Source of the DNA: a virus
IMG/VR virus record: IMGVR_UViG_3300040801_004979
Coordinates: 1 to 26,692 of that record
Length of the DNA: 26,692 nucleotides
Strand: one strand, 5' to 3'
Under the pieces are notes generated by a model that was not told where the DNA came from, made no database searches, and saw only the letters and a program-made list of their open reading frames with translations. Both the position numbers and the translations under genes were made by a program. This document shows, piece by piece, positions 1,590-26,692 of this stretch (positions are counted from its first letter, which is position 1; each line of letters begins with the position of its first letter).

Positions 1590-1798
1590 TGATAACCAAA
1601 TTTGTTGAAAAAAAGAGCGATTTAACCCGTTTGGCCGCACGCTGTTATTTTACCCAGCATTACCGTACGCGGTTAAATTGTAATTGCAAAACAGGCGAAA
1701 ACCGCCGCAATGGTATTTTAATTGCCCGTGGCTGTGTAATTTTGGTTAAGCTAATTAAATGTAAACGGTGTGCAAAGGAGGTAAACCATGCAAAATAA
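1589..1798 (+). CDS. Small basic Cys-rich hypothetical protein (69 aa)
   Basis: The ATG overlaps the previous stop by one base, so the two genes are translationally coupled. The protein is basic and has Cys residues in CNC (about 31-33), a lone Cys (about 49) and a C-terminal CKRC (about 58-61). The last pattern suggests a small zinc-binding module, possibly nucleic-acid binding. Position and size recall small translational or transcriptional regulators such as Mu Com, but the sequence match is not good enough to call it. The downstream gene starts inside its last codons. Confidence 0.45.
   Translation: MITKFVEKKSDLTRLAARCYFTQHYRTRLNCNCKTGENRRNGILIARGCVILVKLIKCKRCAKEVNHAK
1775..1782 (+). promoter_or_regulatory. 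Strong Shine-Dalgarno sequence
   Basis: AAGGAGGT lies 5 bases before the ATG at 1788. It is the only near-perfect Shine-Dalgarno noticed in the window, where starts otherwise follow AT-rich or coupled contexts. It decides the start of the gene at 1788. Confidence 0.55.
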
Positions 1799-2021
1799 TT
1801 GTTCAAATGCGGCGTTATGTTCATGTAACCCACAAAATAAAACCATGGACATACAAGCATTAACCAGATTTTTTAAAAAAGAGATAACCAGTAATGAACT
1901 TAAGGTGGTAATTACACAAGCCCAGCAAATTATAAGCCAGTGTAAAACCCACCCCGATAACACCGACCCCGATGAGGTTATTTATTGGTTAGATAAATTT
2001 AAAACACTGCTTAAGCAGTAA
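1788..2021 (+). CDS. Small hypothetical protein (77 aa)
   Basis: The start at ATG 1788 is supported by the AAGGAGGT just upstream. The N-terminus carries three Cys in NNCSNAALCSC, and the rest is a helical, mixed-charge protein (about 20-77) rich in Lys, Gln and Asp. An internal ATG at residue 20 (MDIQALTRFFKKE) could be an alternative start that removes the Cys-rich head. No family is recognised. It is the last gene of the + strand transcript and ends directly in a strong terminator. Confidence 0.5.
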   Translation: MQNNCSNAALCSCNPQNKTMDIQALTRFFKKEITSNELKVVITQAQQIISQCKTHPDNTDPDEVIYWLDKFKTLLKQ

Positions 2022-2057
2022 AACAAAAAGCCCGGCAATTAGCCGGGTTTTTTGTTT
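2021..2057. terminator. Bidirectional rho-independent terminator between convergent operons
   Basis: The stem AAAGCCCGGC / GCCGGGTTT (about 2027-2036 and 2042-2050) has a 5-base loop, AATTA. It is followed by a T run on the + strand and preceded by an A run that serves the - strand. The terminator overlaps the stop of the + gene at 2019-2021 and the stop of the - gene at 2057-2059, so both transcripts end here. Confidence 0.9.
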
Positions 2058-2593
2058 TAATACGTTTCTATGTCGGTAGGCAACTCCTCCTCCTTTTGCT
2101 TTACCTGTATGGTAGCTTTAATATCCTCAGGTTCGGCATCGGTATAACTTTCGGTAGTAACCTCATCAATAAAACACTGGTAATTTTGTATATGGTACCT
2201 AAAAAACGGTGTTATGTTTGGGTTTTGGCCTACATACCTTAAAGCACTTGTATTTTGCGCCCTAAAGCCTTTTAAAGCTTTTTGCAGGGCTTTTAAAAAC
2301 TTAATGTATTTCAGCCCCTCGGTTAACCGGTTGCTAAACCCCTCGGTACCTGCACCGGGGTTTTGTAGTACATGAAAAAACAGGGCAAGCCTTGCCGCCT
2401 CGTTTTCATTTGGCTTTTGCTCGCTCCAACTAACAAATACCGCCGGGTAAAATATTTCAAACCCTTCGGGGTTATCGGGCTGCCCCATATTAATATCAAT
2501 GGTTCTCGGGTAGCTTACGCCCTGGTTGGTGAATAAGGCTTTTGTTGTGGTCTTATCAAAGTGCGCTGTTAACGCTTCATAAAAAATATCCAT
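2057..2593 (-). CDS. Possible tail terminator / tail completion protein
   Basis: The protein has 178 aa, read from ATG 2593, five bases beyond the upstream stop. A GTG at 2626 would add 11 residues that only overlap the preceding gene. The layout resembles tail-terminator proteins of the Mu gp37 / neck group: an N-terminal helix (MDIFYEALTAHF), a beta segment with a central W (YPAVFVSWSEQ), a helix-rich middle and a late strand with YQCFIDEVT. The C-terminus is long, acidic and variable. This is the last gene of the head/tape-measure operon, directly after the gpG-like gene. The role is inferred from position and fold-like pattern, not from a clear motif. Confidence 0.5.
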   Translation of the reverse strand: MDIFYEALTAHFDKTTTKALFTNQGVSYPRTIDINMGQPDNPEGFEIFYPAVFVSWSEQKPNENEAARLALFFHVLQNPGAGTEGFSNRLTEGLKYIKFLKALQKALKGFRAQNTSALRYVGQNPNITPFFRYHIQNYQCFIDEVTTESYTDAEPEDIKATIQVKQKEEELPTDIETY

Positions 2594-2597
2594 AGTT

Positions 2598-3113
2598 TTA
2601 ACCTTTAATTGCTTTGTTAATTTCACTAACCCCCAACCTTACCAGCCGGGCTTGCAAAACGGCACTTGCCCCAATAAACTGCCTTTGTGGTATATGTTGG
2701 TTAATGGTGCGGGTATGGCTTTTTACCCGGTGCGATTTACGCGTTACGCCCCCGCTACGTGTGTGGGCAGCAATGTTTTGTTTTACCTGACCACGGAAAC
2801 CCTCATTGTGTACGCGCGCCCAAGGTACATCGGTACCAATTACCGCCCGGTGGCTGTCAACATGCACTACCCTAATGCTGCGGCGCAACCTGCCAGTATC
2901 AATTAGTATAGCCCGCTGACCCCGGCGTTTGCTCTGCTTTTGCCAGGCGGGTTTACGTGGTTTCCAAGGCTGCGTGGTGTAATCTACCCAATTTTGTTTC
3001 CTGAACCGCTCTTTGCTAAAGTTAACGGCCTCGGTGGCTGCCCGCCTTGGTAATTTATTAGCGGCGGCAGCAACGCGGTCGAGCATGGCAAAATATTCAC
3101 GGGTTTCGTTCAT
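2598..3113 (-). CDS. Phage virion morphogenesis / tail completion protein (Mu gpG-like)
   Basis: The protein has 171 aa and is very basic. It shows the family pattern: an N-terminal helix, a middle ILIDTGRLRRSI (about 69-81), VIGTDVPWARVHNEGF (about 91-106), a basic region rich in Ser, His and Arg, and IPQRQFIGAS (about 141-150). In the Mu gpG / virion morphogenesis family such proteins act at head-tail joining or tail completion. Its ATG overlaps the stop of the tape-measure gene (TAATG), so the two are coupled. The basic segment at about 107-140 is longer than usual and may bind DNA or the tube end. Confidence 0.75.
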   Translation of the reverse strand: MNETREYFAMLDRVAAAANKLPRRAATEAVNFSKERFRKQNWVDYTTQPWKPRKPAWQKQSKRRGQRAILIDTGRLRRSIRVVHVDSHRAVIGTDVPWARVHNEGFRGQVKQNIAAHTRSGGVTRKSHRVKSHTRTINQHIPQRQFIGASAVLQARLVRLGVSEINKAIKG

Positions 3114-5185
3114 TAGTAGCTCATTTCAACATTACGTACAACACGCATCATCATATCGGTAAACCACTTTTCAAGTTCCTCGGCATCCATATTCTCCAGC
3201 TCGGTGTTTTGCGTGTTAATACCACCCTTAACAAACGAATCAATATTAACCGTAATGTTCCTTATTTGCTTTGCGCTGCCAGTAATTTTAGTAATTTGTT
3301 TTTCACCTGGTGAGCTTCCATCATCTTCGGTTGTTGGAGCAAAAGGATTATCGCTACTGCCATCAAAATATGAATTATACAAATCACTGTATGATTTTAT
3401 TGCCTTGGCATCATCTTTTCGTAATTTACTTAGCTGTTTAAACTGATTAATAATTGTGTCGTAAGGGATGCCTGTTACTGCCGATAAACTCTCAGCTTCT
3501 TTTAGCTGCTCCTGTTTAAAGTTTCCGTTTTCCCAAATAAGTGAATTTGCTTTTTTTGAATACTCCTCTAAACCGGCTATCCACGAACTTAAGGGTGCTT
3601 TATCGGAAACAAATGTTTTTAAATAGTTTTGTTCCCGTTTCATCTGATTGTCGATGATAGCGTTTATTTTCTCCTGTTTGGCCTTTTGTGCTAACTGGTT
3701 TCTTATGGCCTCGGTAACTGCATTTTGAGCCCTGGCAATATCCCAAAGCGAGCTTTTTTCAGTTAAAAGGTTTGGCAGGTACTCTCCATACTGTGTATTT
3801 ATTCGTTCAATTAAATAGCGGCGTGTTTCGCTGCCCTCGTTGGTGTTTTTTAAGGCTTCAAATAACGAAATGGCCTCACTTTGTGTTTTGTTTAAATTAT
3901 CCTGGAAGTTTTCATAAGTGCCGCCTAATTGTTCAATAACCTTATCATAACTAACTATTTCAGCCCTACTTTGCTTAAAATTTTTTATAAGTTTTGGAAT
4001 TTCTTTGGTAATCCAGTCCAGGCCTTTAATTATTGAAGGCAATATTTTCTCGCCCATCTTAATCATTATGGTATTTAGCTGGTTATTAAAAATGGTTTTC
4101 AGCGTGTTGAAATCGCCTTTTGCATTTTTCAAAGCTTCATCCATGCTAAAAGAACTCGAATCATAAGCATTCATGGTATTAAAAAAGTCATCGGCGCCAG
4201 TTTTTAGTTTAACAAACAAATTGCGCAAGCCTTCGGGGCCGCCAATTTTATTTATTAAGGCATCAATGGCCTCCGGGCTCATGCTTTTAAACTGCACCCT
4301 TACTTCTGATAATACTGCACTTAAATCGCGCATGTTGCCATTTGCATCGTACATGCTTATGCCAATGCTTTTCAAGCCTTTTATTGTGCTTTGTTGCGTA
4401 AGCCCCTCAAAGGCTGTTTTGGTCATTGTAGCCGCTGTTTGGCTATTTTTGGCAATGCTGGTAAAGGCGGCAAATATTTTGTTAGCCGTGTCAACATTTT
4501 GCCCGGCACCAGCCGCCGCCCCGGCAAATTCGGTCTGCACTTTTGCCAGTTCGTCAAAGGTGGTAATACCCACCTGTACCGTTTTGGCATTACTGGCCAG
4601 CAGGTTATCAATATCACTTACGCCAAGGCCAAAAGCCTTCATGGCTTTTACGGTTTGGTTCACCGCATCGGGCAACCTAGCACCTGTGGCAAGGCTAAAA
4701 TCACCCACTTTGCGGGTAATATCGGCCACATCGTTTCCAAACAGGCCGGTAGCACTCTGTATATCGTAAAAAGCCTTGGCGGTATCGCCCGCCGCCTGCC
4801 CGGTGGCCATGCTAACATCGAGTATTTTATTACGGTAAGCATCAAGCTCGTGTTGTGGTTTATCGAGGTTTAATTGCTGTATGGGCAAAAACTCGTGGTA
4901 AAAATCGCCAGCGGCCGTGGTGGCATTACTAAAAAGTGCGGTTAGGCCTATTACTGCCGCACCTGCCAAAACAATGGGGTTTTTTATTAACCTAAAGGCG
5001 TTGCCAATTAAAGGTACCTCATTTGCCACCGACTTTATGTTGCTTACCGCGGATGCTTTAAAGTCGGCAAAACGCCTTTTCATCTCGCTTACTGAACTGT
5101 TAACCGATTTTTTTGCCCGGGTAATACCCGTGGCCATGCGGTTTTTTAGTTCCAGTATCAGTTCAATTTTACTTTGTCCGTCCAT
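3113..5185 (-). CDS. Tail tape measure protein (TP901 / PhageMin type)
   Basis: The protein has 690 aa. The N-terminus is a basic amphipathic helix region (1-60), followed by a membrane-type helix (about 70-86). Residues about 95-310 carry the conserved tape-measure core (MATGQAAGDTAKAFYDIQSATG, LPDAVNQTVKAMKAFG, GITTFDELAKVQTEF, KTAFEGLTQQSTIKGLKSIGISMYD). The rest is coiled coil, with a variable C-terminus. At about 0.15 nm per residue, the length predicts a tail near 100 nm. In most contractile-tail phages this gene follows the tail chaperones. Here it is on the opposite strand, between the gpF and gpG-like genes. A small RNA gene overlaps its upstream leader from the other strand. Confidence 0.9.
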   Translation of the reverse strand: MDGQSKIELILELKNRMATGITRAKKSVNSSVSEMKRRFADFKASAVSNIKSVANEVPLIGNAFRLIKNPIVLAGAAVIGLTALFSNATTAAGDFYHEFLPIQQLNLDKPQHELDAYRNKILDVSMATGQAAGDTAKAFYDIQSATGLFGNDVADITRKVGDFSLATGARLPDAVNQTVKAMKAFGLGVSDIDNLLASNAKTVQVGITTFDELAKVQTEFAGAAAGAGQNVDTANKIFAAFTSIAKNSQTAATMTKTAFEGLTQQSTIKGLKSIGISMYDANGNMRDLSAVLSEVRVQFKSMSPEAIDALINKIGGPEGLRNLFVKLKTGADDFFNTMNAYDSSSFSMDEALKNAKGDFNTLKTIFNNQLNTIMIKMGEKILPSIIKGLDWITKEIPKLIKNFKQSRAEIVSYDKVIEQLGGTYENFQDNLNKTQSEAISLFEALKNTNEGSETRRYLIERINTQYGEYLPNLLTEKSSLWDIARAQNAVTEAIRNQLAQKAKQEKINAIIDNQMKREQNYLKTFVSDKAPLSSWIAGLEEYSKKANSLIWENGNFKQEQLKEAESLSAVTGIPYDTIINQFKQLSKLRKDDAKAIKSYSDLYNSYFDGSSDNPFAPTTEDDGSSPGEKQITKITGSAKQIRNITVNIDSFVKGGINTQNTELENMDAEELEKWFTDMMMRVVRNVEMSY

Positions 5186-5217
5186 TTGCGTTTATATTAA
5201 AAAGTTTTGTATATTTG
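5185..5217 (+). promoter_or_regulatory. Bacteroidota-type promoter for a small RNA
   Basis: TTTG at 5185-5188 and TATATTTG at 5210-5217 are 21 bases apart, close to the Bacteroidota consensus. No + strand gene follows. Two hairpins ending in a T tract do follow. The -33 box lies at the first codons of the tape-measure gene on the other strand. Confidence 0.6.
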
Positions 5218-5222
5218 TACTG

Positions 5223-5284
5223 TTCCAAGAGGTTCGGCCTCATGGAAGCAAAAACCCGGGTTACCCTTAGTAATTCGGGTTTTT
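5223..5284 (+). ncRNA. Small two-hairpin RNA ending in an intrinsic terminator
   Basis: Hairpin 1 is TTCCA-a-GAGGT / GCCTC-a-TGGAA (5223-5233 with 5237-5247), with a TCG loop and one A/A mismatch. Hairpin 2 runs AAAAACCCG, two G that make G-U pairs, then TTAC (5250-5264), pairing with GTAA-TT-CGGGTTTTT (5270-5284) around the loop CCTTA. It ends in a T run. The two G-U pairs exist only if the + strand is transcribed; on the - strand they become A/C mismatches. The RNA would be about 60 nt. It lies opposite the junction of the gpF-like and tape-measure genes and is antisense to the last codons of the former. Confidence 0.6.
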
Positions 5285-6550
5285 ATATTTAATAATTTCA
5301 CCACCATTTTCAATCCACACCTGCTTTATAGTTTTACTTTGTTTGAAAATACCGTTCACCGGTTTATATAAATCATCTAAAGGCAAGGCTTCAACAATTT
5401 TTAAATAAATGTTTTTGCATTGTTTTGATTTTTCGTAAATGCTTTTCTGTATTCGTTTATAGGTTGGTTTATTTACCCACTTCAATTCAAATAGCTGATT
5501 GTTTATTAGTGCATCGGGGTTTTTGCCTTTTACAAAATCATCGGTTTTATACAACAGTTTTCTTAAATCATTGGCACCAGTATCAATAATAGGTAAAAGC
5601 TTTATCTTATAGCCATAATCGGCCAATGTTTCGGCCATGGCTACATTTTGCGCCTGTTCACTTATTCCGTGCAGAATGTGTAAATCAACCTTGCCGTTTG
5701 TTTCAGGGTTACGGTAAACATTTTTGTAGGCCACATCGGGCGGCAAGCTTTGCATGCTTTTCCTTAACACATTAGCCGGCACACCATTATAATACGGGTG
5801 TGCTTTTGGAAAAACAAGCCCGCTTTCGGCCAAATTGGTTTGAAACATTTTGGGTACCGGTACCTTTGGAATAAAGCTTGTTTCGTTGGCTGTGCTGGTA
5901 CTTAACTGGTTTGCACTGCAACGGCATCCCCACCCATTTGGGGGGTAATACCTACGCCAAAACTCATCAATAATTTTGCGTATAATGCCATCTAATAGTT
6001 GATGCTCAGGCCTTACGTTGCTATCGCCAGCGGTATCGTATTGCAGATAGGGCATTTCATCGGCATTCGCGGTATATTCTGCCCACCTTGCCGCCATGGT
6101 GCTACTACCAACAGCCTGGTTATATTCTGTTTTTAACCACGTATTGTTATATTGCCCATTAATGCGCTTGGCTTCATCCTTAAACTGGTCGAAAGTTCGG
6201 GCTTTCCCAGCTTCATCAACCAAAGCCATTGTAGTATCGCGCAATTGCTGGTAGTTTTTACTGGCCGAGAATTGCCAAACATCGCGGGTGAGGCGCGTAA
6301 GCATTTTGGCATCGGGCGTGGTAAAATCAATGGTATCGAAGCTTTTACCAAAACCTGAAAACATAGCTCCTTCAACAGCAGAACCAACTACTTTAAGCAA
6401 ACGCTTATCGATGGTACCCGTTTTTATTTTTCCGGCATATACATCATCAATAATGCGGCGAAGCTCTTTATTCATCTTTTTGCTAAAGTTGGGTGGTAGT
6501 TCAGCCTCGTCCTTAATGCCCCCGCACTTTGGGCAGGTGTCGGCATACAA
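5267..6550 (-). CDS. Mu gpF-like head morphogenesis protein with C-terminal nuclease-like domain
   Basis: The protein has 427 aa from TTG 6550. There is no ATG or GTG upstream in frame before a stop, and the reading frame stays open for about 65 bases upstream, so the true start is uncertain. An N-terminal CPKCGG is followed by helical segments. The MuF core is at about 170-212 (RPEHQLLDG ... YYPPNGWGCRC). After a linker (about 255-290), residues about 290-427 form a second domain: AETLADYGYKIKLLP, then NPDALINNQLFELKW, with D346 and E355-x-K357 in a PD-(D/E)xK arrangement. Similar C-termini occur in contact-dependent toxin nucleases and MuF polymorphic toxins. The MuF domain acts in capsid assembly. 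The nuclease role is inferred. No immunity gene lies beside it. Confidence 0.8.
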   Translation of the reverse strand: MYADTCPKCGGIKDEAELPPNFSKKMNKELRRIIDDVYAGKIKTGTIDKRLLKVVGSAVEGAMFSGFGKSFDTIDFTTPDAKMLTRLTRDVWQFSASKNYQQLRDTTMALVDEAGKARTFDQFKDEAKRINGQYNNTWLKTEYNQAVGSSTMAARWAEYTANADEMPYLQYDTAGDSNVRPEHQLLDGIIRKIIDEFWRRYYPPNGWGCRCSANQLSTSTANETSFIPKVPVPKMFQTNLAESGLVFPKAHPYYNGVPANVLRKSMQSLPPDVAYKNVYRNPETNGKVDLHILHGISEQAQNVAMAETLADYGYKIKLLPIIDTGANDLRKLLYKTDDFVKGKNPDALINNQLFELKWVNKPTYKRIQKSIYEKSKQCKNIYLKIVEALPLDDLYKPVNGIFKQSKTIKQVWIENGGEIIKYKNPNY

Positions 6551-6600
6551 TTCGGGCTTATTTTCGGGAGTAATGGCCGCCCCTGGCTCTGTATTACTCC

Positions 6601-7818
6601 CTACCGAAAATTTGCCGATAAACCACCGGTAGTTTGTTTTTGTTTACGCCCTTTTATAGGTATGTTAAAGGTTTTGCTAACCCAATCATCATCAATTTCG
6701 TAATGGTTGAGTGCATCGCTAACAATTTCCCAATGTTCTTTTAACCCGAGCTCCTCGGTGCGGTCGAAAACAAAACGGTCGCCATCGGCCATTTTTATGC
6801 CCCAGGCATTTAACATTGGGGCAATTTTTTGCACGGTAAATTCAATCATACGGCGGTCGCTTTCGGCTATTTTTTCATCCAAGGTGCGTTCATGCACTTC
6901 GCTTTGGCTGCGTGAGCTACCATCATCGCTAATCATTGTACCGCCAACAATACGCTTGCTTATTTCGGCATTGGTGGTAATAATTTGCTCTTGAAAAACC
7001 TTGTGCGGGTCGCCTTTGGTGCTGGCATCGTGTATCTGTATTTTTGTGCCCTCGGGTAAAACAGCCTGTGCTGCCTGCCCTAATTGACTCAACATTTCCT
7101 CAATGGCATCCAGCTTTTTAGTGTCGGTTTCCATGGTTTCAGCGGTAACCATGGGAATGCCAAAACGCTCGCTAAAATCAGCCCAAACCTGTTGGGCGTT
7201 TCTTTTCCAAATAAGCTGTGGAACAATATCGTTTAAAATACCAAACAAATTGTTGGTTTTAAGCTCAACAATTCGGCTGGAAAATTTGGGATCGGTGTAG
7301 GTAATAAACTTATCGCCCAGGGCTTCAAAATAAACCCGGCCAAGTTGTGGGCAAACATTACGGCGGGGAATAATATTAAAAGTCAGCTTTTCAGTATCAA
7401 TAAGCTCGGCCACCGTGTAACCCTTGTAAACGGCATCGAGTAAATGTTCCATAAGGTTATAAAACCACTCACTTTGAAACTGGTCGGTAGCCTCATCGTT
7501 AGGTTCACCGTTTTTATTCATTACAAAAAAGCGGGTACCCATAACCGCAGCTTTTCTAATTTGAATGTTAGACATGAGGTGGCCATCCGTCATCAGGTTT
7601 TCGTACATATCCTGTAACAAACTCCAACGGGGGTTTTCAGGGTCGCTGGCTGCCTGAATGGCTTGCCTCCACTTTTCAATATCGGCGCGGCTACGGTCGG
7701 TAAATTCGTCAACCAGTTGGGTTATAATATTTTTAGTTGAAGCTTTACCCGCAGCAGCAGGACTTTTGGTTTTTATAGCCCCCCAAAGGTAGCTTTTGGT
7801 AATAAATTCTTTAGCCAT
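6601..7818 (-). CDS. Portal protein (DUF935 / Mu gp29-like)
   Basis: The protein has 405 aa. It forms the ring at the capsid vertex through which DNA is packaged. Family landmarks include the N-terminal helix pair ending in ENLMTDGHLMSNIQIRKAAVMG (about 73-94), an E-F-like core GYTVAELID and FNIIPRRNV, the stem/wing WADFSERFGIPMVTAETMETD (about 220-240), and the C-terminal crown with IVGGTMISDDGSSRSQSEVHERT (about 292-314). Length is slightly below Mu gp29 (about 510 aa), mainly at the C-terminus, which ends in a basic, low-complexity KGRKQKQTT segment. Its ATG overlaps the stop of the gp36-like gene (TAATG). A 50-base gap, unusual in this operon, separates it from the gpF-like gene. Confidence 0.85.
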   Translation of the reverse strand: MAKEFITKSYLWGAIKTKSPAAAGKASTKNIITQLVDEFTDRSRADIEKWRQAIQAASDPENPRWSLLQDMYENLMTDGHLMSNIQIRKAAVMGTRFFVMNKNGEPNDEATDQFQSEWFYNLMEHLLDAVYKGYTVAELIDTEKLTFNIIPRRNVCPQLGRVYFEALGDKFITYTDPKFSSRIVELKTNNLFGILNDIVPQLIWKRNAQQVWADFSERFGIPMVTAETMETDTKKLDAIEEMLSQLGQAAQAVLPEGTKIQIHDASTKGDPHKVFQEQIITTNAEISKRIVGGTMISDDGSSRSQSEVHERTLDEKIAESDRRMIEFTVQKIAPMLNAWGIKMADGDRFVFDRTEELGLKEHWEIVSDALNHYEIDDDWVSKTFNIPIKGRKQKQTTGGLSANFR

Positions 7819-8255
7819 TAGTATCGGTTATTTGTTTGTTCGTACCTGCTTTTTATTCTTACATCATATACCGGCTGATCGTCTTCATCTTTTATAACCG
7901 GTAAATTAGTAGCTTCGCCTTTTTGCACAGCCTTAAGCCATTCAAGGGCATCGGCATAGCGGTCAATTCGGGTTTGTGGTATATTGTTGCCACCCTCTTT
8001 TGTCCAAAGGTGGTAAAGGGCCATGTCAATCACAGTCATAACAATAAACTGGTCGCGGGTATCGGCCTCTCCATCGGCAGGAGCGTCAATAAAAATCAGA
8101 TCGAGATCGTACCTTCCACCTAAATAGTTTTTCATTTGACTAATGGCCATGTTCACGGCTTTAGCCAGCTTGGTTTTTTCGGTGGTTTCATCAATCACCT
8201 GGTTTATCTCTGCCCTTATCTGAACTTCATAATCAGAATCTTTAATAAATGCCAT
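7818..8255 (-). CDS. Head-tail connector-type protein (DUF1320 / Mu gp36-like)
   Basis: The protein has 145 aa. The pattern fits the DUF1320 family: an N-terminal MAFIKDSDYEVQIRAEI helix, a helix-loop-helix centre (about 30-60), then the family-typical segment QFIVMTVIDMALYHLWTK (about 70-88) followed by IPQTRIDRYADALEWLKAVQKGEATN. The last motif resembles gp6-type connector proteins that add a ring below the portal. In Mu the gene lies after the capsid gene, while here it is between large terminase and portal. It starts one base after the terminase stop. Confidence 0.75.
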   Translation of the reverse strand: MAFIKDSDYEVQIRAEINQVIDETTEKTKLAKAVNMAISQMKNYLGGRYDLDLIFIDAPADGEADTRDQFIVMTVIDMALYHLWTKEGGNNIPQTRIDRYADALEWLKAVQKGEATNLPVIKDEDDQPVYDVRIKSRYEQTNNRY

Positions 8256-8256
8256 A

Positions 8257-9780
8257 TCAATATCGGTGTTTAGAGTTTGCTCTTAAGCTTTGTTTTGTTC
8301 GTATGCGGGGTGCAAACGCATCGGTTCGCACGTAAGTCGCCAGTTTATTAATTGCCTGTTCATCGGCATCGGGACTATCATCATGCGTTTTATAGCCCGG
8401 TTCAATTCCCTTTAGTTGTTGAATGCCTACCTGTACATCGTTGTTGGGCTTTAACTTTTCATCGTAATAAATACGATTGTTTTGATAGTAAGGCATGAGG
8501 CCGGAAACAATACGATCGTATTTGTCCATACGTGGGCGTTCGGTAACAATAATATTTAAAGGCCTTTTCATTTCCAGTTCAACCACTTTTAAAGCATCAC
8601 GTAGGGGGTCATTCCAAAACTGGCTCTCAACATGCCAGTGTACTACCACTGTGGGGGGTAAACCCTCCTCATAGTCGTACATAAAGCGTATGGCCTCCAC
8701 CATTTTGCATTGCTTAACAAAACCACCCAAAAGCCAAAATTGCCGACCAGTTAACGCCCAAACTTTAACAGCATTAAAGTCGCTTTTGCCCGAAAAGGCC
8801 ACATCCCAAAAACCAATAATAAGGCTAAAGCTGTTTAACCTCGGTGTTTTGGCGTATTGTATCATTTCATCAGTAAACAACTTTCCCTCGGTGTGCTTTT
8901 CGTGGTTATATTCGGCACGTGCGGCAAGTGCGCCAATATCATCCTCTACCTCTTTATAATAATGGGGTGGGTATTTTTCTTTCCAGGCGGGTTCGTATGT
9001 TTCCTGATTGTAAGCTTTAACTTCGTGTACCTTCCAGTTGGGGTGACGTTCCTCTAACTGGTTTTGGATGGAGCGGGGCCAGGGGTCATTATTAGGCTGC
9101 AAATATCGCCTCGTCTCGCCATCCATGGTAGGTATCAAATCACGCTCTATCCAGCGTACAACATCATCCTGCCTCTTTGGGTTTCGGCTGGTGTCTTTAT
9201 CTTCTAAATCATCGGGAATGATAAGATTAGGCCTTTTTTTGCCCTTGCGTAACCCACGTGGGCTTTGCCCCATGCCCAGCGATTTTCCAATAAAATTACC
9301 ATCACGGGTTGAAAAATCACCATCAGCCCAGCTGCCTTCCAGTTTTTGTTCCCCAAAATCGTGAATAAGCAATTGGTTGGCATCAAATTCGGCCTGCAAG
9401 TCGCTAAGTAGTATTGTTCCTTTATCGTAATTATTACCAACAATAACAACATAAATTTCCTCCCCGTTTATCCAAAGCCATAAAGGTATAAGTGTATCAC
9501 AAACCACCGATTTTGCCAAACCACGCCCCCAGCGCACTAAAAAACGGCAGGTTTTATCTTTTTTTACCTTATTTGCTAAATCGGCATGAAACCATGGCGT
9601 TTCGGCATCGGCATAATGCTTGAAGTATTCACGGACAAAATAAGAAAAATCTTTTTTCGCCTTTTCAATTCTTAGTAATTGTTCGGTCCGGGTTTCGCTG
9701 GCCACAATACTACCGCCCGACTTAATTACGCCAAGTTTCTCTTTATATCGTTTTAATGCATCGCGGTCCTGTAATTTCAT
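8257..9780 (-). CDS. terL: Terminase large subunit
   Basis: The protein has 507 aa. It is the motor and nuclease that packages and cuts concatemeric or integrated phage DNA. The ATPase half has a Walker A-like segment RWGRGLAKSV (about 83-92) and a Walker B NLIIPDDLED (about 185-194). The nuclease half has FWDVAFSGKSDFNAV (D326) for the first metal ligand, ESQFWND (E385) and the final HDDSPDA (about 466-472). The Walker A lacks the classical GxGKS order, as in several terminases of this branch. Gene order with the small subunit upstream is normal. It is followed by connector and portal genes. Confidence 0.9.
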   Translation of the reverse strand: MKLQDRDALKRYKEKLGVIKSGGSIVASETRTEQLLRIEKAKKDFSYFVREYFKHYADAETPWFHADLANKVKKDKTCRFLVRWGRGLAKSVVCDTLIPLWLWINGEEIYVVIVGNNYDKGTILLSDLQAEFDANQLLIHDFGEQKLEGSWADGDFSTRDGNFIGKSLGMGQSPRGLRKGKKRPNLIIPDDLEDKDTSRNPKRQDDVVRWIERDLIPTMDGETRRYLQPNNDPWPRSIQNQLEERHPNWKVHEVKAYNQETYEPAWKEKYPPHYYKEVEDDIGALAARAEYNHEKHTEGKLFTDEMIQYAKTPRLNSFSLIIGFWDVAFSGKSDFNAVKVWALTGRQFWLLGGFVKQCKMVEAIRFMYDYEEGLPPTVVVHWHVESQFWNDPLRDALKVVELEMKRPLNIIVTERPRMDKYDRIVSGLMPYYQNNRIYYDEKLKPNNDVQVGIQQLKGIEPGYKTHDDSPDADEQAINKLATYVRTDAFAPRIRTKQSLRANSKHRY

Positions 9781-9782
9781 GT

Positions 9783-10280
9783 TTATTTAAAAGTTAGTGA
9801 TACATCGTTTAAGTGGCGTTCCTGAAAGTCGAGTGTTTTCATGTAAAGCTTAATATCTTCTTTGCGTAATGCTTCAAAAACCATGTCCATAACATTCAGG
9901 TAGGTGCTAAGTGTAACCTGGTTCTCTTTGTCAACGTTTTCAAGCGTTTTGTTCCATTTGCTTACGGCATCATCAACCTTTGCAATGATTGTCCGTAGCT
10001 CGGTGCAGCGTTCTATGTCGCTATCGCTTTCGGCCTGTTTTAATTGTCGGCCCAATTCAATTCGTTGCTCACTTAAATCGTTAATAATTTGCTTAATGTT
10101 GTTGGTGCGGTTGCTGGGGTTTGCAACCCTGGCACTCCGGGCTTGTTTCCAACCAAACTGGTTTACCCACTTGCTTAATGTAGCTTCGCTAACGTTAACC
10201 ATGCCGCTAATTTCCTTGGCATCCTTACCCTGATCGACATAGAGTATACGTGCTACTTTTTTTTCCTTTTCCTTGGCCAT
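9783..10280 (-). CDS. Probable terminase small subunit (HTH protein)
   Basis: The protein has 165 aa from ATG 10280. A TTG at 10301 would add seven residues and is less likely. Residues about 15-45 (VARILYVDQGKDAKEISGMVNVSEATLSKWVNQFGW) form a helix-turn-helix of the kind seen in small terminase subunits. A Ser/Asn-rich linker and a long coiled-coil region (about 60-160) for oligomerisation follow. Mu has an analogous small packaging protein beside the large terminase. The gene is the first of the - strand operon, with its start 178 bases from the divergent protease gene, so it probably shares its control region. Confidence 0.7.
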   Translation of the reverse strand: MAKEKEKKVARILYVDQGKDAKEISGMVNVSEATLSKWVNQFGWKQARSARVANPSNRTNNIKQIINDLSEQRIELGRQLKQAESDSDIERCTELRTIIAKVDDAVSKWNKTLENVDKENQVTLSTYLNVMDMVFEALRKEDIKLYMKTLDFQERHLNDVSLTFK

Positions 10281-10284
10281 GTTA

Positions 10285-10422
10285 CACTTATTTATATGCA
10301 AAGGTGGGTTAAAGTGAAATGAAAAAGTAAAAACGTTGCCATGCTGGCGTAAATAATTGACAGTATGACAGTTATATTCTTATTTGTGTACAAATAGATT
10401 TAATATTGCACTCAAATAAGTG
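10285..10422. promoter_or_regulatory. Divergent late control region with palindrome
   Basis: This stretch separates the two divergent structural operons. TATTTGT-GT-ACAAATA (10381-10396) is a near-perfect 16-bp palindrome. Each half reads TATTTG in its own direction and so could serve as part of a -7 box on either strand, with TTGACA at 10357-10362 as a possible upstream box for the + direction. CACTTATTT (10285-10293) and AAATAAGTG (10414-10422) form a 9-bp inverted repeat at the edges. GACAGT is repeated directly at about 10359-10371. No perfect TAnnTTTG box is present, which fits a promoter that needs an activator. Confidence 0.5.
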
Positions 10423-25593: not shown

Positions 25594-26484
25594 ATGAGAG
25601 GTGTGACAACCAAAAAAGCGTACACAAGTGCGCCTTTGCCTTTTATGGGGCAAAAAAGACGTTTTTTAAAGCAATTTAAACAAGCTTTAAATGAGTTTGA
25701 AACGGCAACATTATTTGTTGATTTATTTGGCGGCTCAGGCTTGTTGAGCCATACAACCAAACAGTACCGATCCGATGCAATTGTTGTGTACAACGACTAT
25801 GACGATTATCATTTACGGCTATTGAATGTTCCTTTTACTAACCAAATGCTCGAACACATTCGCACATTAGTAAAAGGTAGTCCTGAAGATAAGAAGCTAC
25901 CAAATGAGTTTAAAGAGCAAATTGTTCAGTACGTAAAGGGTCAGGAAGAAAAGCACGGCTTTGTTGATTACATTACGTTATCAAGTTCCTTGCTATTCAG
26001 TATGAACTATGCTACCACCATTACAGGGCTTGAAAAGTCCACGCTATACAATTGTGTACGTAAAAGCAATTACAATGCTACTGGCTACCTTGACGGCTTA
26101 CATGTTGTTAAAAGCGATTACAAAGAACTATTCAATAAATACAAGAACATTGATAATGTTGTATTCATTGTTGACCCTCCATACTTATCAACTGAGGTAG
26201 GCACATACAACAATTATTGGCGTTTAGCCGATTATTTAGATGTATTGAAGGTATTAAAAGAAAACTCATACTTTTATTTCACGTCAGATAAGTCTTCAAT
26301 TGTTGAGCTATGCGAATGGCTTGAAAAGAATTTGGAGGCAAACAACCCATTTGAAAATAGTGTTAAGTATGAAATGCCTGTAAAAGTGAATCACAATGCG
26401 GGCTATACTGACATAATGCTGTACAAGAATGTAAGCACCACAGCACCACTCATTAAGCCTGATTATTGTTCGGATGTAACTTAG
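25594..26484 (+). CDS. DNA adenine methylase (D12 class)
   Basis: The protein has 296 aa. It transfers a methyl group from S-adenosylmethionine to N6 of adenine. Motifs are in alpha-class order: PLPFMGQKRR (about 14-23, target/AdoMet motif X), FVDLFGGSG (about 41-49, AdoMet-binding motif I) and VDPPY (193-197, catalytic motif IV). The target recognition region lies between about 75 and 185. No restriction enzyme gene is beside it, so it is a solitary methylase. It may protect phage DNA from host restriction or alter gene control, a role comparable to Mu mom at the right end of that phage. The gene is 42 bases after the Fn3 gene. Confidence 0.85.
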   Translation: MRGVTTKKAYTSAPLPFMGQKRRFLKQFKQALNEFETATLFVDLFGGSGLLSHTTKQYRSDAIVVYNDYDDYHLRLLNVPFTNQMLEHIRTLVKGSPEDKKLPNEFKEQIVQYVKGQEEKHGFVDYITLSSSLLFSMNYATTITGLEKSTLYNCVRKSNYNATGYLDGLHVVKSDYKELFNKYKNIDNVVFIVDPPYLSTEVGTYNNYWRLADYLDVLKVLKENSYFYFTSDKSSIVELCEWLEKNLEANNPFENSVKYEMPVKVNHNAGYTDIMLYKNVSTTAPLIKPDYCSDVT

Positions 26485-26487
26485 GGT

Positions 26488-26598
26488 ATAAAAAACCCGG
26501 ACGGGATAAGTTGTCACACTTCTTCGCACAGAAAAACCAGCAAAGACACCCATCCGGGCAATGCTTTAAGTCTTATGCTGGTTCGTAAGAAGTGTGAC
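26488..26598 (-). ncRNA. Structured RNA of about 110 nt with predicted pseudoknot
   Basis: Read on the - strand. The 5' arm GTCACACTTCTT (26524-26513 as complement partner) pairs over 12 bp with AAGAAGTGTGAC (26587-26598). Inside, AACCAGCA-AAGAC (26535-26547) pairs with GTCTT-a-TGCTGGTT (26570-26583). The apical loop holds CCCATCCGGG (26549-26558), which can pair over 9 of 10 bases with CCCGGACGGG (26496-26505) near the 3' end and so forms a pseudoknot. Six A on the + strand (26490-26495) give a T tract at the RNA 3' end. A TATCTTTG box lies just upstream. I do not recognise this family. Confidence 0.65.
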
Positions 26599-26602
26599 TT
26601 CA

Positions 26603-26610
26603 CAAAGATA
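26603..26610 (-). promoter_or_regulatory. -7 box TATCTTTG for the - strand RNA
   Basis: TATCTTTG (26610 down to 26603) matches TAnnTTTG and is placed so that transcription would begin at about 26598, exactly at the outer stem of the structured RNA. The -33 side is weak (TTTA at about 26633-26637). On the + strand TATATTTG at 26621-26628 could serve a divergent transcript, but nothing after it is complete in the window. Confidence 0.55.
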
Positions 26611-26646: not shown

Positions 26647-26680
26647 ACAATTCGATTTAAAAAGTGGCACAATTCGATTT
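26647..26680. repeat. 12-bp direct repeats spaced 22 bp apart, near the possible phage right end
   Basis: ACAATTCGATTT occurs at 26647-26658 and at 26669-26680, 22 bases start to start, which is two turns of the helix. That is the spacing of repeated MuA/Tn7-type transposase sites at element ends. The position just after the methylase gene fits. No other copy was noticed in the window. Confidence 0.5.
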
Positions 26681-26692
26681 GCTGATTATATA

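Follow-up and report, generated by a model that had tools for sequence, protein, structure and literature searches.

Does the short gap between a methyltransferase gene and the right end of a Mu-like phage hold a gene for a noncoding RNA, and what could such an RNA do? The question was raised by a preliminary description of the window, that is the whole analysed stretch of 26,692 nucleotides (IMG/VR virus record IMGVR_UViG_3300040801_004979, positions 1 to 26,692), in which a compact, pseudoknotted minus-strand RNA with its own promoter had been proposed from the letters. The comparison with related phages supports this proposal, and we consider it probable, with good confidence, that a small structured RNA with the fold set out below is encoded here on the minus strand.

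The right end of the window and its fold

The window covers the right-hand portion of a Mu-like Bacteroidota phage: matches to the Mu portal and Mu F proteins were obtained together with a terminase-sized open reading frame and tail genes. The head and packaging block (2057-10301; terminase, Mu portal, Mu F and neighbours) lies on the minus strand and the later tail and right-end genes on the plus strand, a similar inversion being present in the hankyphage. At 5267-6550 (minus strand) a Mu F-like head protein continues into a C-terminal domain similar to the toxin domain at the C terminus of CdiA (Pfam CdiA_C; the E-value of 1.6e-5 narrowly misses the cut-off of that family), possibly a polymorphic toxin on a phage head protein. 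A Dam-like adenine methyltransferase is encoded at 25594-26484 (plus strand); hankyphages have homologs of it at their right end under the annotation DNA methyltransferase. The right end of the phage is located at 26647-26690 (plus strand), with ACAATTCGATTT repeats at 26647-26658 and 26669-26680 and the terminal GATTATA, and the final bases of the window can be aligned with the very end of Winogradskyella phage Peternella_1. All features of the RNA sit on the minus strand between the methyltransferase stop codon and the ACAATTCGATTT repeats. The methyltransferase gene is convergent with the RNA, its stop codon being 5 bp from the T tract of the latter.

The RNA of about 109 nt was placed at 26490-26598 (minus strand) by two covariance models (R1 and R2, see below), the z-score of the fold and covariation in relatives; the first base of P1 was taken as the inferred 5' end. 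A Bacteroidota-type -7 box of the form TAnnTTTG (TATCTTTG, 26603-26610, minus strand) precedes P1 by 4 nt. Taken alone the box is weak evidence; the motif occurs 24 times in the window against 42 occurrences expected by chance. The nested stems of 12, 8 and 5 bp that had been described were all found in place on the minus strand. P1 pairs GTCACACTTCTT (26587-26598) with AAGAAGTGTGAC (26513-26524) in 12 of 12 positions, P2 pairs AACCAGCA (26576-26583) with TGCTGGTT (26535-26542) in 8 of 8, and in the upper part of P2 (stem 3) AAGAC (26570-26574) pairs with GTCTT (26543-26547) in 5 of 5; P1 and P2 covary in the family. This nested fold has -42.5 kcal/mol compared with -27.2 ± 3.7 kcal/mol in shuffled sequences (z=-4.1) and is better than 200 of 200 shuffles. 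The loop-to-tail pairing, described as 9/10 bp, comprises 10 pairs including one G-U between the apical-loop strand CCCGGATGGG (26549-26558, minus strand) and the 3' tail strand CCCGTCCGGG (26496-26505, minus strand), with a duplex energy of -23.2 kcal/mol, and likewise covaries in the family. The T tract was present as T6 (TTTTTT, 26490-26495, minus strand) directly after this helix. An overlapping open reading frame of 81 amino acids (26308-26553, minus strand) does not explain the element: among its relatives, length and stem sequence differ while the pairing is kept.

The claim that the RNA is unrecognised held in database and literature searches. Rfam 15 gave no match in the window at the gathering score, only unrelated weak matches in the region of the element at E<=10 (best E=6.1), and no credible match to the RNA in the loci of six relatives at E<=1. 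A weak match to Rfam RT-17 (28.5 bits, cut-off 40.4) was noted away from the RNA in a Parabacteroides prophage (L014, 572-665), just upstream of a reverse transcriptase of the type found in diversity-generating retroelements (DGR). The passages searched of the hankyphage papers do not mention the RNA, and it is undescribed in the literature searched, where an unnamed prediction may stand in the supplementary tables of a human-microbiome RNA survey (PMC8040213). With no relative found in Rfam or the literature searched, the RNA family is apparently new, which refers to the family and not to a functional kind.

Relatives and covariation

With R1, a covariance model based only on the window sequence, weak matches sharing its architecture turned up close to the methyltransferase gene in related phages. 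A DNA pattern built from the conserved loop and tail of these matches was found in 36 viral contigs, 35 of them with box, P1, P2 and loop:tail pairing; the match in L112 was spurious. A second model (R2), made from 14 pattern-derived sequences with the window left out, recovered the window element over the full model length (26 bits, E=5e-4 over 26.7 kb). The window copy thus belongs, as a divergent member, to a family of RNAs of about 110-160 nt near the right end of Mu-like Bacteroidota phages, an extension beyond the preliminary description. An exact-pattern scan from the letters of the window had no matches, because the stem and loop sequences drift, and in a DNA similarity search of the window element against phages only the R-end repeats matched (Peternella).

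Co-varying base changes, on which the preliminary description had made its proposal depend, were abundant among the relatives in all stems and in the pseudoknot. In the 14-sequence alignment 93% of the cells pair, 85 cells are double-changed compared with 30 ± 4 after shuffling, and pairing drops to 36-46% when the structure is slid by 1-3 columns. For 72 non-redundant members, the own arms of each sequence were compared with arms exchanged between members. Mean scores for own and swapped arms were 12.3 and 6.6 for P1, 13.0 and 6.6 for P2, 9.2 and 7.1 for the loop:tail pseudoknot, and 7.2 and 5.2 for a further helix, P3. Automatic helix detection did not succeed for a few rows (L016, L017, L081), and the effect is to depress these means, not to inflate them. 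For each of the four helices 0 of 2000 permutations attained the observed sum, counts that are not probabilities since related sequences are not independent. On the sequences compared, the covariation argument is carried by the number of different arm sequences. An alignment of a distant clade (A7), in which P1 was badly aligned, was left out of model building, and the pair counts of alignment A6 were not used because about 25 of its rows were opposite-strand; the 14-sequence and 72-member tests were used.

P3 had not been noticed before and is present in most relatives: bases just before the 3' arm of P1 pair with bases just after it (GTTAATA...TATTAAC and many variants). Its mean length in the family is 7-8 bp, and a remnant of about 4 bp is left in the window. 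For a further possible helix, P4, in which the tail would pair with bases beyond the T tract, the signal scarcely exceeded that of permutations (1/5000), and the wobble pairs favour the opposite strand. Family-wide, a short complement of the pseudoknot tail often lies 3' of the T tract (e.g. GGAGGCTTTTTTACCTCC); the window has GGGT...ACCC at this place. Loop and tail form the most conserved region while the stems drift freely. The pseudoknot occurs in sequence variants such as CCCCCGGTC/GGCCGGGGG in the hankyphage, CCTCCAAC/GTTGGAGG and the 14-bp pairing AAGAGCATCCGGTT/AACCGGATGCTCTT in L022. The latter element (1780-2010, minus strand) is the most diverged member seen, has a different loop sequence and T7 after the pseudoknot, and was missed by R2.

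The pairing also identified the strand. Allowing G-U pairs lengthens the pseudoknot helix in 67 of the 72 sequences, whereas allowing A-C, the G-U of the opposite strand, does so in one; since this G-U usage fits the minus strand, the minus strand is the functional one. A functional plus strand, acting as structured 3' UTR of the methyltransferase mRNA in the window or as 5' leader in the relatives, is thereby made very unlikely. Late read-through would transcribe the element, and the complement folds in part, with weak R1 and R2 scores on the opposite strand. But the G-U pairs orient P1 and P3 as well as the pseudoknot to the minus strand, to which box and T tract also belong, and on the plus strand R2 scores are far lower and the descriptor introduced below found none.

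Distribution, promoter box and probable terminator

Occurrence was recorded in 80 methyltransferase-bearing IMG/VR viral contigs. R2 detected the RNA in 62 of them and an independent descriptor (box, P1, P2, pseudoknot and T tract) in 71; in the controls the descriptor matched 0/80 opposite strands, 0/80 shuffled sequences and 3/258 other phage stretches. Automated detection by either method amounted to 76, and with L036, L054, L056 and L064 recognised by eye the RNA was present in 80 of 80. Each phage with a match had one RNA locus, and in all related phages inspected the RNA lay close to the right end. Carriers include the hankyphages p00 and jmh42/43/47/51/72/79, a Parabacteroides prophage (L014), a transposable phage of P. 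gingivalis (L135), Winogradskyella phage Peternella_1 (L008) and Flavobacterium phage fF4. The stretches searched of Haemophilus phage SuMu, Moraxella phage Mcat3 and a Helicobacter prophage, which have related methyltransferases, contained none, and among 296 Bacteroidota genomes 2 had the RNA.

The RNA is not a product of chance, because four helices covary, the box is equidistant in the relatives and the RNA occurs in all 80 contigs; it is very likely functional because it was kept there while the stems changed and stayed paired. A chance inverted repeat, a MITE or a part of the transposon end, as a perfect 12-bp inverted repeat near a phage end might suggest, has a negligible probability: arms of different sequence occupy corresponding places in all contigs with one copy per genome, covariation contradicts it, no target-site duplication is visible, and the true R-end repeats lie outside the RNA, at 26647-26690. 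That the RNA itself might be a transposon end, a reservation of the preliminary description, is thus removed.

In relatives, the RNA and the first gene of the right-end cargo module usually diverge from each other, 4-48 nt apart; the adjoining cargo genes code for an 80-aa protein (hp44), a methyltransferase or a thymidylate synthase. In the hankyphage it lies unannotated between Avd and hp44. The window copy is atypical in location as well as in loop sequence: it is not divergent from a cargo gene within about 50 nt, adjoins the R-end and is the only one of 72 with the RNA clearly downstream of the whole methyltransferase gene. Divergence from a cargo gene is the usual, not the universal context, and no structural criterion. 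In P. gingivalis phage012a (L135, 877-997) the RNA overlaps the annotated start of an 'acetyltransferase' CDS, which suggests that this start was annotated too far upstream. The position directly after reverse transcriptase and Avd in the hankyphage and in the Parabacteroides phage could point to an RNA component of a diversity-generating retroelement or retron. This is exceedingly unlikely, as most distant relatives carry the RNA too, among them phages with no reverse transcriptase match nearby (L002, L006, L017, Peternella), no such reading frame is apparent in the window, and the annotated template repeat of p00 is a feature separate from the RNA.

The TAnnTTTG box that had been described just upstream of the RNA recurs with unchanged spacing in relatives, and 71 of 72 members have it immediately before P1. 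This count includes pattern-derived members, which were anchored on the box, and R2-found members, whose selection did not depend on it. The family has a weak -33 element: TTG stands at 19-nt spacing in only 9 of the 72. At the other end, the pseudoknot of 8-14 bp adjoins the T tract, and the 8 nt after its tail contain on average 6.3 T. The last 14 nt before the T tract reach a mean local folding energy of -2.1 kcal/mol in the family versus -21.9 kcal/mol for the loop:tail pairing. Since the pseudoknot is the only strong helix adjoining the T tract, it is plausibly the terminator; pseudoknot and terminator would be one element, as had been supposed before, and the comparative evidence agrees.

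In members whose P1 is as short as 7-8 bp, the RNA may be interpreted as a pair of hairpins, one loop trapping the 5' end (P1) and the other the 3' tail (pseudoknot). With a long P1, P1 and P3 should be sterically exclusive, which suggests two states. With a linker of 7 nt, it appears impossible for P1, P2 and pseudoknot all to form fully in one straight stack, and the RNA would have to bend or to adopt alternative states. These alternatives, P1 or P3 and loop hairpin or pseudoknot, suggest that conformational switching is possible.

Promoter and terminator fold could also serve mainly in cis, as a boundary that blocks late-operon transcription from entering the right-end cargo module or, in the window, from leaving the phage end, the RNA product being dispensable. 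The arrangement would suit such a boundary: the RNA strand is opposite to the late operon in the relatives, the distance of 4-48 nt was found wherever a divergent cargo gene was identified, and in the window the RNA is the last element before the R-end. Promoter collision, however, needs no four covarying helices with G-U usage restricted to the minus strand, and the plus-strand copy of the window element has no T tract after its stems. A mere boundary is therefore distinctly unlikely.

Possible roles and comparison with known systems

Among the functions considered, we rank a trans-acting regulator first, a protein decoy or anti-defence RNA second and the cis-boundary third; a machine part is the boldest reading. 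We tentatively favour a trans-acting regulatory RNA of the phage, made in the lysogen or straight after entry. The host polymerase would likely transcribe the RNA independently from the host-type TAnnTTTG box a few bases before the first helix. In the computed fold, P1 closes the 5' end, P2 bears the apical loop and the 3' tail pairs with that loop; with P3, as in most relatives, both ends are locked into hairpin loops, which likely renders the RNA stable. Transcription is likely terminated by the loop:tail helix, formed on emergence of the tail from the RNA polymerase, together with the T tract. The RNA may then act in trans by base pairing or protein binding. Its expression in the lysogen or early after entry is assumed, with uncertainty, from the host housekeeping type of the box.

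A base-pairing target was sought at gene starts. AGAGGTGTGACAAC at the methyltransferase start (25597-25610, plus strand) matches the 3' side of P1 in 13 of 14 positions; partly complementary to the 5' arm of the RNA, it is a possible antisense site. For 5'-arm targets at gene starts there was no general enrichment, own-genome sites being no better than those for foreign arms, so that a base-pairing role in trans lacks direct support, and a general antisense control RNA was not supported by this own-versus-foreign test. Suggestive sites are isolated: besides the methyltransferase start of the window, two early genes of L099 (995 and 1779 in phage orientation) have AAGTGAGATT directly before the ATG, a perfect 10-nt complement of the 5' arm of the L099 RNA; most other phages have no such pairs. 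In hankyphage jmh43 (L134, 1455-1470) the RNA spacer (TTTTTTAGACAACAAA) matches the repressor and early control region in 15 of 16 nt beside a palindrome GTCTAAGAAACTTAGAC, perhaps by chance, as the match is not kept in the hankyphage variants jmh47/72.

Protein binding could as well make the RNA a decoy or anti-defence RNA, with the loop/tail pseudoknot binding a host nuclease, defence sensor or RNA chaperone after expression from the host promoter right after entry. The conservation of loop and tail among freely drifting stems would fit, and the cargo region beside a methyltransferase is a typical anti-restriction position. On the other hand, occurrence in every member speaks for a core function in the phage instead of a host-specific counter-defence; we hold a decoy or anti-defence role to be unlikely. 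Equally doubtful is the boldest reading, that a core RNA of Bacteroidota transposable phages, with both ends pseudoknotted into its own hairpin loops, is a machine part or switch and its 3' pseudoknot a new kind of terminator. Such an RNA might multimerise by swaps of 5' arm and loop or toggle between P1 and P3 on partner binding, e.g., in transposition, packaging or the choice between lysis and lysogeny.

Whichever role applies, the phage group with this RNA spans gut, oral and environmental hosts, and the whole group seems to depend on an unannotated RNA. Hankyphages are among the most widespread gut phages. Every hankyphage examined carries the unannotated RNA gene. These phages have been sequenced, induced and RNA-sequenced, with stranded RNA-seq data of B. 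thetaiotaomicron jmh43 (E-MTAB-14274) cited in PMC12135933.

The phage RNA has parallels among known systems. ColE1 RNAI, CopA and Tn10 RNA-OUT are short, highly structured control RNAs with their own promoter, in which loop pairing is central. Like them, the phage RNA is encoded on the element whose spread it may control; unlike them, it has a different fold, is not located opposite a replication or transposase gene, and no conserved antisense target was found. RNAs associated with diversity-generating retroelements (template repeats, Rfam RT-1 to RT-19) share with it the place beside reverse transcriptase and Avd in hankyphages, whereas the phage RNA also occurs without a reverse transcriptase nearby. 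The prohead RNA of phi29 is likewise of about 120 nt, phage-wide and near the genome end with long-range loop pairing, but the two have no sequence or Rfam similarity and the promoter of the phage RNA is of the host type. To our knowledge, no RNA is known to take part in the headful packaging of Mu-like phages.

Closest in position is the com-mom system of Mu and SuMu, in which an RNA-level regulator stands beside a DNA-modification gene in the same right-end slot. In the Mu-like Haemophilus phage SuMu, com followed by a methyltransferase occupies this slot. Com is a protein and SuMu has no R2 match, whereas the Bacteroidota phages have an RNA gene there; by analogy, an RNA that replaces a protein regulator is an attractive idea. 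Intrinsic (Rho-independent) terminators finally share with the phage RNA a G+C-rich helix followed by a T tract. In the phage RNA, unlike in these terminators, this helix is formed by loop-to-tail pseudoknotting, and the isolated tail folds only weakly, at the mean energy given above; the family may offer a natural example of transcription being terminated by a pseudoknot instead of a hairpin.
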